A stretch of DNA of 64,000 bases from Sneathia vaginalis (GTDB taxonomy: Bacteria > Fusobacteriota > Fusobacteriia > Fusobacteriales > Leptotrichiaceae), in contig NZ_CP011280.1 of assembly GCF_000973085.1 (NCBI RefSeq), forward strand, positions 584,642 through 648,641, in the 5' to 3' direction. Below the pieces are notes generated by a model, which saw only the letters and a program-made list of their open reading frames with translations, had not been told where the DNA came from and did not search any database. Positions 21,902 through 26,678 of the stretch are shown in pieces. Positions within the stretch are counted from its first letter, which is position 1, and every line of letters begins with the position of its first letter. The translations under genes were made by a program, and so were the position numbers.

Positions 21902-22902
21902 GTGATTTTGCATTTAGAAAAAAATTTTCTGAACAATTAAGTGATTTAATTGAAGGAGATATTAACTTATTAGAAGCAATAGGAATTCTTAAAAGATCAT
22001 TTAAAGGTAAAAAAAGAGAAAAAGTAATGAAGTTACAGTATCTATTAGAAAAAGGGAAAAATTTAGATGAAGCTTTTAGTTGTATTTCAACAGATAAAGA
22101 ATTCTTATCGTTTGTTAAAACGGGAGAAAAAACGGGTGATCTGAAGAAGTGCTTTAAGCTTTTAAAAGAAAAATATACTTTCATATCACAATTAAAATCA
22201 GAAGTAATTTCTATCCTTATTTATCCCATCATGGTAATATTAGCAGCCATCGTTATTTTCAATGTTCTTTTACTATTAGTAGTTCCAAAATTTATAGACA
22301 TATACCAAGAATTAGGGCAAAATTTACCTAAAATAACAATGGTGGTAATAAATATATCTAATTTTTTGATAAAGTATAGGTTAATGATAGCAATATTTTT
22401 TGTATTCTTATCAGGTGTAATATATTTTTGTATATTAAGACAAAAAAGTGTATTAGATAGACTGCTATACAAAGTGGGTATAGTAAGGCTGTATATACTT
22501 TTAAGTTTTACTCAAAATATGTATGCATCGTTTTCATCTGGTATAGAATTCTTAGAAGCATTAAAGTTATCAATGAATACTAATAATATAGTATTTAGAA
22601 ATGAATTAAATAGGATATATAAAAGAATAGAAAAAGGTGCTAGTATAAATTATGCTTTTAATAACTCAAGCTTTTTTGACGAAGAATACAAAAGCTATAT
22701 TATAATAGCCGACATGACGGCAGATTTATCTAAAACATTTAATACACTAACTGTAATATTAAATAACAGATTAAGGTATAAAGTTAAAATATATCTAAAG
22801 TTTCTAGAGCCTATATCCATACTAATAATAGCTATTTTTGTAGGACTAATTGTTTTAGCGATAATGTTACCGTTATTTAATTTGGGTGAAAATTTAATGT
22901 AA
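21898..22902 (+). CDS. pilC: Pilus/secretion platform protein (GspF/PilC family)
   Basis: Polytopic inner-membrane protein on which the pilin fibre is assembled. The 334 residues carry the duplicated T2SSF domain: LSDLIEGDINLLEAIGIL with FVKTGEKTGDL, three or four transmembrane helices (one VMVILAAIVIFNVLLLLVVP), the second copy YASFSSGIEFLEALKLSM, and a last helix FLEPISILIIAIFVGLIVLA. No assembly ATPase gene (GspE/PilB) is present beside it. The last 125 bp including the stop codon are duplicated at 23631-23755, on the far side of a KilA-N insertion. Confidence 0.9.
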   Translation: MSDFAFRKKFSEQLSDLIEGDINLLEAIGILKRSFKGKKREKVMKLQYLLEKGKNLDEAFSCISTDKEFLSFVKTGEKTGDLKKCFKLLKEKYTFISQLKSEVISILIYPIMVILAAIVIFNVLLLLVVPKFIDIYQELGQNLPKITMVVINISNFLIKYRLMIAIFFVFLSGVIYFCILRQKSVLDRLLYKVGIVRLYILLSFTQNMYASFSSGIEFLEALKLSMNTNNIVFRNELNRIYKRIEKGASINYAFNNSSFFDEEYKSYIIIADMTADLSKTFNTLTVILNNRLRYKVKIYLKFLEPISILIIAIFVGLIVLAIMLPLFNLGENLM

Positions 22903-22904
22903 AA
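22780..22904 (+). repeat. Direct repeat, copy 1: 3' end of the platform gene
   Basis: 125 bp that recur at 23631-23755 with two mismatches. This copy is part of the intact gene. Confidence 0.95.
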
Positions 22905-22930
22905 GATATAGCATAAAGGGGGGGATTTGC

Positions 22931-23638
22931 ATATCTAAGACAAAAAAAGATACAATCGAAGCAAAAGAGTTTGCTATTCAAATTTATACTAAAGACTTTA
23001 AAAATGACTATATAAGTCTAACGGATATTGCTAGATATAAAAGTGATGAGCCAAGTGATGTAATAAAAAATTGGATGAGAAGAAAAGATACAATTGAATT
23101 TCTTGGTTTATGGGAAAGCTTAAATAATATGAATTTCAATTCGGTCGAATTCGACCGAATTAAATCTGAAGCTGGATATAATACCTTTACATTATCTCCA
23201 AAGAAATGGGTAGAGAAAACAGAAGCAATCGGAATTATCTCAAAAGGTGGAAGATATGATGGTACATTTGCACATACAGATATTGCCTTTGAATTTGCTT
23301 CATGGATTTCTGCTGAGTTTAAGATGTATGTAATTCAAGATTACAAGAGACTTAAGTCAGATGAAAATTCTAAGCTATCGTTAGGTTGGAATTTGAATAG
23401 AGAAATTTCTAAGATTAATTATAAAATTCATACAGATTCAATTAGTGAAGCAGATATGCTAAATGTTGCCTTATTTAACAAGAGATCTAAACAGTGGCGT
23501 GAAGAAAATCCTAACTTAAAGGGTAATATGAGAGACTATGCAAGCCTGAATGAATTACTTGTGCTTGCTAGAACCCAGCATATGTCAATTGAAAAGTTGA
23601 ACAATACAGGGATTAAGAGCTTAGAAAATAAAAGTTAA
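22931..23638 (+). pseudogene. KilA-N / antirepressor-like phage gene, damaged
   Basis: The frame is open from about 22931 (ISKTKKDTIEAKEFAIQIYT) through KNDYISLTDIARYKSDEPSD, the KilA-N DNA-binding core, to SPKKWVEKTEAIGIISKGGR, YDGTFAHTDIAFEFASWISA and NREISKINYKIHTD. The segment that normally follows is missing (HTDSISEADML), and the end runs into the duplicated pilC tail at 23631. No good start codon is present: ATG 23075 is internal, and 22931 is ATA after GGGGGG. I therefore treat it as a 5'- and 3'-damaged prophage gene between two direct repeats. Confidence 0.8.
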
Positions 23639-23755
23639 AATATATCTAAAGTTTCTAGAGCCTATATCCATACTAATAATAGCTATCTTTGTAGGACTAA
23701 TTGTTTTAGCAATAATGTTACCGTTATTTAATTTGGGTGAAAATTTAATGTAAAA
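23631..23755 (+). repeat. Direct repeat, copy 2: orphan 3' end of the platform gene
   Basis: Matches 22780-22904 (two mismatches in 125 bp) and encodes the last helix of the platform protein with no upstream gene. It marks the right border of the KilA-N insertion and leads into the RNA/nuclease array. Confidence 0.95.
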
Positions 23756-23780
23756 AAATTCGTTATTTAGAAAATTAGTC

Positions 23781-23808
23781 TTGAATTTATTATACAAAAT
23801 GATATAAT
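23781..23808 (+). promoter_or_regulatory. Promoter of RNA module 1
   Basis: TTGAAT (23781-23786), 16 bp, TATAAT (23803-23808). Confidence 0.85.
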
Positions 23809-23814
23809 AAATAC

Positions 23815-23998
23815 AGAAATAAATAGGGTTTCAGAGATGTGTGTTCTCTTACCGAGAGTACGGGTTGGAAATATACTAGACGGACATACACGCACAGTTA
23901 TACTTAATCTGGGTCTACTGTGGTAAGTTGTTGAAAAAACGGAATACTAAAAGTAAATTAAAAGACTAAATTATAGAAATATAGTTTGGTCTTTTTTG
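23815..23998 (+). ncRNA. Structured RNA, module 1, ending in an intrinsic terminator
   Basis: About 184 nt between promoter and ORF. AGAGATGTGTGTTCTCT forms a hairpin whose loop TGTGTGT can pair with ACACGCA downstream (pseudoknot). CCGAGAGTA and TACTAGACGG form a second stem around GGGTTGGAAATA. The 3' end is a terminator: AAAGACTAAATTATA (23961-23975) pairs with TATAGTTTGGTCTTT (23980-23994), GAAA loop, T tail. Four copies occur in tandem. I do not recognise a known riboswitch. A type III antitoxin RNA or an attenuating leader are the main options. Confidence 0.65.
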
Positions 23999-24027
23999 TT
24001 GTAATTTTTTAGAAAGGTAAACAAACA

Positions 24028-24759
24028 ATGAATAAAATAAAAGAAATATATAATTGGTACAAAGAATTTAATAACAAGGAAATTGTAATACAAACAGAAA
24101 ATAAAAACTTAGAAATAAAAATTAATAATAAAGCTTTGCCACATTTATTAGGCATACATTATATAGGTGTTAAAAATAAAATACCTGTTAGAGAATTAAT
24201 ACATAAAATAAAAACATTACATGATGAAGATATTTTTAAAGAAATATTTATAAATAATCCTAATACTATATCAAGTGTAAAAAATAGAATAAATAATTTT
24301 GAAGAATTTATGAAAAATTTAGAAAATGCAATATTGGTAGAAAATACATATGATTCTACCTTAAAATCACAACATTTTTTCATACAAACAAAAGAAAATA
24401 AAATATTACATTTAGGTTTAATAGATGCTGGTTATTCAGATATACCTGTTGAATTTGATGTAATTGATAAAAAATATCTTGAAACATTTATACAAGAAAA
24501 AACTAATAAAAGATATAAAGATACTCAAATAGTTGAACACGTTAAAAATATTTACGAATATGTAAATGATGAACTAAAATATTTTTCATTTGACACTGGA
24601 AAGCAAGAAAAACTAGACGAAGTTGCAAAGATAGATAAAAACTATGATTATCACGAAGCGTTAAATAAGAGTATTGAAGAAATAAAAAAAGAAAAGCAAA
24701 CAATTGATATGTGGAGCAAATGGAAAAATAGAAGTTATGATGACGATTGGGAAAGATAA
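24028..24759 (+). CDS. PBECR4-like nuclease domain protein, module 1
   Basis: 243 residues. LPHLLG near residue 37, VKNRINNFEEF near 84 and KENKILHLGLIDAGYSDIPV near 130 follow the pattern of PBECR4 (phage-associated barnase/EndoU/colicin/RelE-like) proteins, which are presumed RNases of phage and toxin context. AGAAAGG precedes the ATG, and the terminator of the upstream RNA lies 30 nt before it, so expression needs read-through. Residues 1-42 and 85-243 are almost identical to module 2, while 43-84 differ. Nuclease activity is inferred from family resemblance; no catalytic residue is proven by the sequence. Confidence 0.65.
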   Translation: MNKIKEIYNWYKEFNNKEIVIQTENKNLEIKINNKALPHLLGIHYIGVKNKIPVRELIHKIKTLHDEDIFKEIFINNPNTISSVKNRINNFEEFMKNLENAILVENTYDSTLKSQHFFIQTKENKILHLGLIDAGYSDIPVEFDVIDKKYLETFIQEKTNKRYKDTQIVEHVKNIYEYVNDELKYFSFDTGKQEKLDEVAKIDKNYDYHEALNKSIEEIKKEKQTIDMWSKWKNRSYDDDWER

Positions 24760-24800
24760 TAATTAAAAGCACAATTGGAATTGAATAATTAAATTTAGTC

Positions 24801-24828
24801 TTGAATTTATTATACAAAATGATATAAT
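24801..24828 (+). promoter_or_regulatory. Promoter of RNA module 2
   Basis: TTGAAT (24801-24806), 16 bp, TATAAT (24823-24828), identical to module 1. Confidence 0.85.
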
Positions 24829-24834
24829 AAATAC

Positions 24835-25013
24835 AGAAATAAATAAGGTTTCAGAGATGTGTGTTCTCTTACTGTCAGAGCAGGTTGGAAATACTCTGAA
24901 CGGACATACACACACAGTTAATACTTATATCTGGGTTTGACCATAGCGGTAGTTGAATAGCTAAAAGTAAATTAAAAGACTAAATTATAGAAATATAGTT
25001 TGGTCTTTTTTTG
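24835..25013 (+). ncRNA. Structured RNA, module 2, ending in an intrinsic terminator
   Basis: Same architecture as module 1. The second stem reads GTCAGAG with CTCTGAAC instead of the module 1 sequence, so both sides changed together and pairing is kept. The loop TGTGTGT can pair with ACACACA. Terminator stem 24975-25008 has 15 bp with a GAAA loop. Confidence 0.65.
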
Positions 25014-25043
25014 TTTTAATTTTTTTAGAAAGGAAAACAAATT

Positions 25044-25781
25044 ATGAATAAAATAAAAGAAATATATAATTGGTACAAACAATTTAATAATAAAGAAATT
25101 GTAATACAAACAGAAAATAAAAACTTAGGAATAAAAATAACTAATACTGCATTGCCACATTTATTAGGCTTACAATATATTGAAGAAAAAGCCACTAAAT
25201 TGATTGGAACAGATTTAATTAAATTAATTAAAAATATTGATGATGACAATGTATTTTATAAAAAAATATTAAAAAATAATTTCAAAATGTTAGAAAGTGT
25301 AAAAAATAGAATAAATAATTTTGAAGAATTTATGAAAAATTTGGAAAATGCAATATTGGTAGAAAATACATATGATTCTACCTTAAAATCACAACATTTT
25401 TTCATACAAACAAAAGAAAATAAAATATTACATTTAGGTTTAATAGATGCTGGTTATTCAGATATACCTGTTGAATTTGATGTAATTGATAAAAAATATC
25501 TTGAAACATTTATACAAGAAAAAACTAATAAAAGATATAAAGATACTCAAATAGTTGAACACGTTAAAAATATTTACGAATATGTAAATGATGAACTAAA
25601 ATATTTTTCATTTGACATTGAAAAGCAAGAAAAACTAGAAGAAGTTGCAAAGATAGATAAAAACTATGATTATCACGAAGCGTTAAATAAGAGTATTGAA
25701 GAAATAAAAAAAGAAAAGCAAACAATTGATATGTGGAGCAATTGGAAAAATAGAAGTTATGATGACGATTGGGAAAGATAA
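25044..25781 (+). CDS. PBECR4-like nuclease domain protein, module 2
   Basis: 245 residues, paralogue of module 1. The first 42 residues (to LPHLLG) and everything from VKNRINNFEEF to the end are nearly identical to it. Between them, about 42 residues (LQYIEEKATKLIGTDLIKLI and onward) are clearly different. Such block divergence suggests replacement of a specificity segment or recombination between relatives. AGAAAGG lies before the ATG and after the RNA terminator. The gene is intact. Function is inferred as for module 1. Confidence 0.65.
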   Translation: MNKIKEIYNWYKQFNNKEIVIQTENKNLGIKITNTALPHLLGLQYIEEKATKLIGTDLIKLIKNIDDDNVFYKKILKNNFKMLESVKNRINNFEEFMKNLENAILVENTYDSTLKSQHFFIQTKENKILHLGLIDAGYSDIPVEFDVIDKKYLETFIQEKTNKRYKDTQIVEHVKNIYEYVNDELKYFSFDIEKQEKLEEVAKIDKNYDYHEALNKSIEEIKKEKQTIDMWSNWKNRSYDDDWER

Positions 25782-25822
25782 TAATTAAAAGCACAATTAG
25801 AATTGAATAATTAAAGTTAGTC

Positions 25823-25850
25823 TTGAATTTATTATACAAAATGATATAAT
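25823..25850 (+). promoter_or_regulatory. Promoter of RNA module 3
   Basis: TTGAAT (25823-25828), 16 bp, TATAAT (25845-25850). Confidence 0.85.
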
Positions 25851-25856
25851 AAATAC

Positions 25857-26036
25857 AGAAATAAATAAGGTTTCAGAGATGTGTGTTCTCTTACTGTCAG
25901 AGCAGGTTGGAAATACTCTGAACCGTCATACACACACAGTTAAACTTAATCTGGGCATACTATGGCAAGTATTTGAAAAAATGAAATGCTAAAAGTTAAT
26001 AAAGACTAAATTATAAAAATAGTTTGGTCTTTTTTT
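25857..26036 (+). ncRNA. Structured RNA, module 3, ending in an intrinsic terminator
   Basis: Module 2-type second stem (GTCAGAG/CTCTGAAC). The outer bases read CCGTCAT where the other copies have CGGACAT. The terminator stem (26001-26028) is one pair shorter with an A-rich loop, the loss of an A on one side matched by the loss of a T on the other. Confidence 0.65.
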
Positions 26037-26065
26037 GTTTTAAATTTTTTAGAAAGGAAAAAACT

Positions 26066-26179
26066 ATGAATAAAATAAAAGAAATATATAATTGGTACAA
26101 ACAATTTAATAATAAAGAAATTGTAATACAAACAGAAAATAAAAACTTAGAAATAAAAATAACTAATAGAATTGAATAA
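26066..26179 (+). pseudogene. Truncated nuclease ORF, module 3
   Basis: Encodes the first 34 residues of the module proteins (MNKIKEIYNWYKQFNNKEIV and onward to KITN), then joins the intergenic sequence and stops after RIE. About 650 bp of gene body have been deleted cleanly, between the codons KITN and the GAATTGAATAA spacer that normally follows the stop codon. The RNA part of this module and of the next remain intact. Confidence 0.8.
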
Positions 26180-26191
26180 TTAAATTTAGTC

Positions 26192-26219
26192 TTGAATTTA
26201 TTAGACAAAATGATATAAT
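26192..26219 (+). promoter_or_regulatory. Promoter of RNA module 4
   Basis: TTGAAT (26192-26197), 16 bp, TATAAT (26214-26219). Confidence 0.85.
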
Positions 26220-26225
26220 AAATAT

Positions 26226-26397
26226 AGAAATAAATAAGGTTTCAGAGATGTGTGTTCTCTTACCGAGAGTACGGGTTGGAAATATACTAGACGGACATAC
26301 ACACACAGTTATACTTAATCTGGGTCTTATCATAGCGATGTTAAAAGTTAAAAGTAAATTAAAAGACTAAATTATAAAAATAGTTTGGTCTTTTTTT
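26226..26397 (+). ncRNA. Structured RNA, module 4, ending in an intrinsic terminator
   Basis: Module 1-type second stem (CCGAGAGTA/TACTAGACGG), with ACACACA available for the TGTGTGT loop. Terminator AAAGACTAAATTAT pairs with ATAGTTTGGTCTTT at 26362-26393 and is followed by a T run. Confidence 0.65.
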
Positions 26398-26428
26398 GCT
26401 TTAAATTTTTTAGAAAGGAAAACAAACA

Positions 26429-26638
26429 ATGAATAAAATAAAAGAAATATATAATTGGTACAAACAATTTAATAATAAAGAAATTGTAATACAAACAGAA
26501 AATAAAAACTTAGAAATAAAAATAACTAATACTGCATTGCCACATTTTACAAAATCACGATATAAAAATTATGATAATTTACCTGATAATGCTGAATATT
26601 ATAGAGATAATAACAGAAAAAGAGTTAAAATCAAATAG
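26429..26638 (+). pseudogene. Truncated nuclease ORF, module 4
   Basis: 69 residues. The first 39, ending ALPH, equal the other modules. The remaining 30 (FTKSRYKNYDNLPDNAEYYR and onward) differ completely from modules 1 and 2 and may be the end of another relative joined by deletion. AGAAAGGAAAAC precedes the ATG. It is too short to hold the whole domain. Confidence 0.65.
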
Positions 26639-26678
26639 ACCAATATTTAAAACAAAAGAATAGAACTACAAAAGATAT

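Follow-up and report, generated by a model that had tools for sequence, protein, structure and literature searches.

Analysis of a 64,000-nucleotide window of the Sneathia vaginalis genome (a single contig of 1.33 Mb, NZ_CP011280.1; window positions 1 to 64,000 correspond to contig positions 584,642 to 648,641) identified an array of RNA-PBECR4 modules that probably represents a type III-like toxin-antitoxin system, in which a PBECR4 toxin is paired with a non-repeat, pseudoknotted RNA antitoxin. The original prediction, made from the sequence alone, had described four tandem units of promoter, ~180-nt RNA, intrinsic terminator, and open reading frame (ORF), and all four were present at positions 23781-26638. 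Its type III-like interpretation is supported by the architecture, by RNA homology, by covarying structure, by the association with PBECR4, and by RNAs that occur without a toxin. By sequence, the modules fall outside the ToxIN, CptIN, and TenpIN families and apparently form an unnamed branch of RNA-neutralised (type III) systems across Fusobacteria and lactic acid bacteria. The word PBECR4 was absent from the open-access literature searched; subscription papers and preprints lay outside that search, and priority is therefore uncertain.

All parts of the array lie on the forward strand, and each promoter was recognised by sequence as TTGAAT-N16-TATAAT. The RNAs were matched with R1, a covariance model of the nested part of the RNA fold trained without window sequences. 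Module 1 consists of a promoter at 23781-23808, an RNA with inferred limits at 23813-23999 (terminator 23962-23997; R1 match, E 6e-8), and an ORF at 24028-24759 encoding a 243-aa PBECR4 nuclease-like putative toxin with the C-terminal sequence ...DDDWER. Module 2 comprises a promoter at 24801-24828, an RNA at 24833-25013 (terminator 24976-25012; R1 match, E 7e-6), and an ORF at 25044-25781 for a 245-aa PBECR4 putative toxin with the same C-terminal tail. In module 3, a promoter (25823-25850) and an RNA (25855-26036; terminator 26002-26036), homologous by alignment to the other copies and without an R1 match, precede a truncated ORF of 37 aa (26066-26179). Module 4 has a promoter with one spacer change (26192-26219), an RNA at 26224-26398 (terminator 26363-26397) that R1 matches better than any other in the window (E 2.2e-8), and a truncated ORF of 69 aa (26429-26638) whose first ~40 aa are PBECR4-like and whose tail is unrelated. 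The RNAs, promoters, and terminators of modules 3 and 4 are thus retained despite their truncated ORFs, as had been claimed.

The intrinsic terminator in the modules reads AAGACTAAATTATA...ATAGTTTGGTCTTTTTT, and the ORF begins ~30 nt beyond it. Direct repeats formed families of 191-199 nt with four members each, far above chance. Over the final ~480 nt of the ORF, modules 1 and 2 are near-identical; most of the differences between them fall in ORF codons ~35-85 and, within the RNA, in its middle and 3' part. A correspondence between RNA type and ORF type within the array was considered and holds only in part: module 4 mixes types, its hairpin 2 being of the module-1 type and its ORF start module-2-like, and recombination accounts for the blurred match.

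The assignment of the intact ORFs to PBECR4, proposed from the sequence, was confirmed with Pfam PF18813, which the proteins of modules 1 and 2 matched with E values of 5.8e-28 and 2e-28 (99 and 100.5 bits, against a gathering cut-off of 27). The Pfam scan returned PBECR4 alone apart from one sub-threshold match, and no Abi_2 domain. Alignment of 37 PBECR4 members showed that His39 and Gly42 are invariant, and Thr153 is invariant in the ten closest members. PBECR4 is a predicted endoribonuclease: Iyer et al. (PMC5512222) based their prediction of RNase activity for the PBECR group on a helix histidine and a C-terminal Thr/Ser, and His39 is in line with that helix histidine.

The fold of ToxN is of the MazF/CcdB-like kind. 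An AF2 model of PBECR4 (pLDDT 88) gave CcdB as the best fold comparison (Z 4.4 over 72 residues, 4.0 A), followed by several MazF structures at Z ~3.5, tied with unrelated barrels; Foldseek returned nothing significant, and VIA returned weak CcdB/MazF-like similarity only. A search of the PDB by sequence profile gave no match for PBECR4. A relationship to ToxN was rejected on profile-profile comparison (hhalign probability 0.1-0.6%), and the window proteins had no match to PF13958. Likewise, none of the 37 PBECR4 members matched the CptIN/TenpIN models NF047359 and NF047358 at E 0.1, so that the comparison with ToxN, CptN, and TenpN called for at the outset placed PBECR4 with none of them. PADLOC found nothing for the window proteins and a weak PDC-M04B match in 2 of the 37 homologues, and a phage collection contained no match by DNA or by protein. 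A ToxN protein (L106, 1486-2364) and a PBECR4 protein (L035, 1465-2370) have in common a ~110-residue C-terminal domain (BLASTP E 4e-12), in which the Pfam scan recognised no named domain, as if toxin heads had been swapped on one body.

No known RNA class accounted for the window RNAs. In agreement with the prediction that they match no known riboswitch, the whole window had no Rfam match at gathering level except one tRNA; relaxed thresholds yielded only chance-level matches in the window (E 3-4), and the window RNAs did not match the Rfam drum RNA (RF02958). The structured portion, which is the candidate antitoxin, spans ~150 nt. A MAFFT alignment that pooled all RNA subclasses (A3) misregistered several helices, and the structural model was therefore built from nine better-aligned homologous RNAs from Streptobacillus-type genomes, Fusobacterium plasmids, an Erysipelotrichaceae bin, and Streptococcus suis, with no window sequence included (A4). 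The resulting fold has six helices, namely four hairpins and two pseudoknots: the loop of hairpin 1 pairs with a segment located after hairpin 2, and the GGGU part of the conserved GGGUYNGAAAU loop of hairpin 2 pairs after hairpin 3. By inspection, the first pseudoknot can also form in window module 1, where the UGUGUG loop of a GAGA-loop-UCUC hairpin is able to pair with a downstream ACGCACA.

Covariation in the nine RNAs was pronounced. Standard pairs occupied 91% of 269 cells over 30 pairs, 16 of the 30 pairs showed two-sided changes, and none of 500 shuffles reached the observed values. When partners were slid, pairing fell to 29-42%, a control that flatters the structure because the structure was read from the same nine sequences; the two-sided changes depend less on this circularity. 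In a 26-row alignment fitted to the model, the last four rows of which are chance-level matches, two-sided changes were found in 19 of 20 pairs. The covariance-model check proposed at the outset succeeded, with R1 recovering RNAs 4, 1, and 2 of the window and not reporting RNA 3. Covariation among homologues, and not folding energy, shows that the window-type RNA is genuinely structured.

R1 was also used to determine what such RNAs precede, by searching 96 Fusobacteriales genomes at E 0.01, a search whose stricter filters the window's own RNAs fall below. Ten matches were obtained, of which six precede an intact PBECR4 ORF, two a truncated one, and two no PBECR4 ORF; homologues leading metabolic genes, which had been named as evidence that would overturn the interpretation, were absent from the ten. 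Matches in L126 and L128 stand directly before PBECR4 starts that are cut short, the match in L124 is followed by a transposase, and the RNA in L125 has kept its pairings but stands by itself, followed only by a gene on the opposite strand. A further RNA without its own toxin lies at L026 4461-4616, and in L056 the RNA stands ahead of a 51-aa remnant. Counting window modules 3 and 4, eight RNAs lack an intact toxin (six of them in other places), whereas the class-1 set contains a single intact toxin, that of L009, that lacks such an RNA. This excess is predicted for a neutralising RNA, whose loss ahead of the toxin would kill the cell, and not for a plain leader.

The same layout was found at stand-alone PBECR4 genes in general. 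PBECR4 was present in 14 of 98 Fusobacteriota genomes and in 42 of 345 genomes from the order of a Streptococcus suis genome, and it was rare in evenly drawn Bacillota (4/398 genomes). In the regions inspected, a promoter, RNA, terminator, and ORF occurred in this order nearly everywhere upstream of and including stand-alone PBECR4. An automatic test for a hairpin and U tract was positive at 44 of 52 stand-alone PBECR4 genes, with the intrinsic terminator lying 17-101 nt ahead of the start codon, as opposed to 19 of 123 control ORFs of the same loci (Fisher p 2.6e-18; start codons and terminators were assigned by simple rules, and near-identical loci were counted separately), and several of the eight genes missed by the rule show visible terminators that it rejected. 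PBECR4 domains inside giant polyvalent proteins had no upstream terminator (0/10). In L013 (1483-2736), a PBECR4-like N-terminus is fused to DUF4116 repeats, and separate DUF4116 proteins occur in the PBECR4-bearing elements L090 and L087.

Two other RNA classes were found before PBECR4. Tandem repeats of 52-55 nt in 1.9-4.3 copies precede it at 14 Lactobacillales and Fusobacterium loci. Each repeat unit terminates in a hairpin with a 4-nt loop that is matched by the 5' arm of a unit, and where units differ, loop 1 fits arm 2 and loop 2 fits arm 1 (12 of 14 strict matches vs 1 within-unit, with arms picked by eye). Two-unit repeat RNAs in which the loop is complementary to the arm of the other unit were seen in L040, L065, L069, L072, L078, and L079. 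This pattern suggests that the units are interlocked or offset in processing. In L079, two matches to the Rfam type I antitoxin RatA (1114-1204 and 2195-2280) flank the PBECR4 locus. In four genomes, PBECR4 is immediately preceded by the drum RNA, at or above the gathering score (L050:1352-1447 and, on the reverse strand, L081:2128-2233, L098:2041-2150, and L100:2065-2169); in the 398 Bacillota genomes, three drum matches passed the gathering score, and two of the three stood directly before PBECR4. Since unrelated RNA classes occupy one slot before the same protein family, protein binding fits better than recognition of one ligand.

The layout of type III systems consists of a promoter, an antitoxin RNA, a Rho-independent terminator, and a toxin (PMC5086642), and the window modules have the same order, with a single promoter, an RNA, a Rho-independent terminator, and an ORF. 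They also have in common with type III systems a pseudoknotted RNA, as both pseudoknots covary in the nine homologues. Tandem repeats, which described type III antitoxins also have (PMC5086642), were found at sister PBECR4 loci and not in the window RNAs. Compared with ToxIN/AbiQ (PF13958), the modules are alike in promoter-RNA-terminator-ORF order, in the pseudoknotted RNA, and in the C-terminal domain common to L106 and L035, whereas the toxin is unrelated by profile, and ToxI consists of 34-36-nt repeats while the window RNA is one ~150-nt structure. CptIN and TenpIN have the same layout, with 2.1 repeats of 45-50 nt (quoted in PMC12373285), and the sister PBECR4 loci resemble them in carrying ~2 repeats of 52-55 nt, but PBECR4 members match the models of neither family. 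RNA antitoxins that depart from the ToxI pattern include AvcI, for which a minimum of ~171 nt is given and repeats are not mentioned (PMC10511110), and RCd22, an RNA with two abiF motifs that inhibits AbiF (PMC12373285). Their toxins are different, being a deaminase in AvcID and an Abi_2 protein in AbiF, and no terminator is predicted between the RNA and the toxin of avcID, whereas the window modules have one. The polyvalent and phage PBECR domains (PF18813; PMC5512222) belong to the same domain family and have the conserved helix histidine, but the polyvalent copies lack the upstream terminator of stand-alone PBECR4. That source describes PBECR as an RNase domain predicted in polyvalent and in solo phage or plasmid proteins, and its passages considered here mention no RNA partner. 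Drum resembles the window RNA in its position directly upstream of PBECR4, but the window RNA does not match it.

Under a type III-like mechanism, one promoter would produce an abundant ~180-nt pseudoknotted RNA that stops at the intrinsic terminator, and rare read-through would yield small amounts of mRNA encoding PBECR4, the predicted endoribonuclease. The folded RNA would bind this protein and hold it inactive. Loss of the locus or shut-off of host transcription, for example by a phage, would deplete the RNA before the protein and free the nuclease. Spread of the loci would occur on conjugative elements and plasmids, and modules 3 and 4 would have lost the toxin and kept the RNA, as expected of a neutralising RNA.

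Several observations weigh against this interpretation. Toxicity, RNase activity, binding, neutralisation, and the trigger are steps that we infer, and the predicted structure of PBECR4 has no clear match in the PDB. The window RNAs contain no short tandem repeats, in agreement with the original prediction, and free-energy folding of these RNAs was no better than that of shuffles (z -0.44 to +1.08). In L009, a 133-aa ORF lies upstream of PBECR4 in place of a window-type RNA, and L133 has a strong drum match with no PBECR4 after it. The association with RNA is also partly ascertained, because homologous loci were found via the protein; the unbiased part consists of the R1 and drum genome searches, both of which are small. 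At L093:5131-5532 (reverse strand) in G006, a 133-aa ORF lies just upstream of PBECR4, in the usual place of the RNA, and might encode a protein partner.

An RNA that acts in cis as an attenuator or riboswitch-like leader, sensing a signal and controlling read-through without ever contacting the protein, would explain the leader position, the terminator ~30 nt before the ORF, and a complex pseudoknotted fold like that of sensing RNAs. We consider this unlikely, as there were no Rfam riboswitch matches, the RNA persists without an intact ORF (modules 3 and 4, L124, L125, L126, L128, and L026 4461-4616), and tandem-repeat and drum RNAs of unrelated classes fill the same slot. Moreover, the terminator hairpin is separate and follows the structured part, with no obvious alternative pairing, although no systematic test for such pairing was made. 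Very improbable is a role of the RNA as a guide or cofactor that activates the PBECR4 nuclease or directs it against foreign RNA, instead of as an antitoxin. Such a role would accommodate one RNA per protein, highly variable paired segments, and arrays of alternative copies, and AbiF, itself RNA-inhibited, is the reported ancestor of Cas13 (PMC12373285); however, these segments pair internally and show covariation, so that little sequence would be free to act as a guide, nothing resembling a spacer was recognised, although RNA targets were not searched for, and RNA-only remnants make less sense for a cofactor.

It is also quite unlikely that the array is the decaying remnant of a mobile element, functionless in this host, with units kept by recent duplication only. 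Two of the four ORFs are truncated, a fifth module copy elsewhere in the same genome has decayed, the VirB4 family model had no match for a conjugation ATPase in the host genome, and the congener G001 lacks the island, all of which would be expected of a relic. Nevertheless, ORFs 1 and 2 remain intact and score close to 100 bits against Pfam, all four copies have kept their promoter and terminator, and decay in this host would leave the nature of the module in other hosts unchanged. The type III-like toxin-antitoxin system is thus the interpretation we favour.

The island, with approximate limits at 22905-26670, consists of a KilA-N gene (PF04383) and the four modules. It is flanked by a gspF-like gene and an alpha/beta hydrolase gene, which are direct neighbours in G001. 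A 105-bp direct repeat (98%; 22800-22904 and 23651-23755) places the 3' end of the gspF-like gene on both sides of the KilA-N gene, as if the latter had arrived together with the duplicated gene end. Elsewhere, several PBECR4 homologues adjoin genes for VirB4, TrbL/VirB6, a type II/IV secretion ATPase, ArdC, and toprim proteins, and some sit on plasmids.

The C-terminal ...ER tail is common to unrelated proteins of such elements, ending 8 of 15 ORFs in L088 and 7 of 19 in L090; among window ORFs of at least 100 aa, only the two intact toxins have it. Two forms of the tail were seen across L087-L090 and L093, a Streptobacillus type (..W.KK....E(I/M)ER) and a Fusobacterium plasmid type (..IPKK.......ER). 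Our guess is that the tail may be a conjugative type IV secretion signal. A tentative and doubtful extension of this is that PBECR4 might be an RNA-restrained conjugation effector delivered with DNA into the recipient, the RNA protecting the donor and then the new host; if so, the type III toxin-antitoxin pair would have a second function, as a translocated weapon in anti-defence or competition.

If the type III-like interpretation is true, the RNA-neutralised toxin-antitoxin systems would gain a further toxin family, PBECR4, so far a predicted phage and plasmid nuclease domain, would have a concrete regulatory partner, and the Rfam drum RNA could be given a role. The data suggest that one toxin family is paired with several RNA architectures, some built of tandem repeats and others of one large pseudoknotted RNA, and the evolution of RNA antitoxins would therefore be directly comparable within one protein family.

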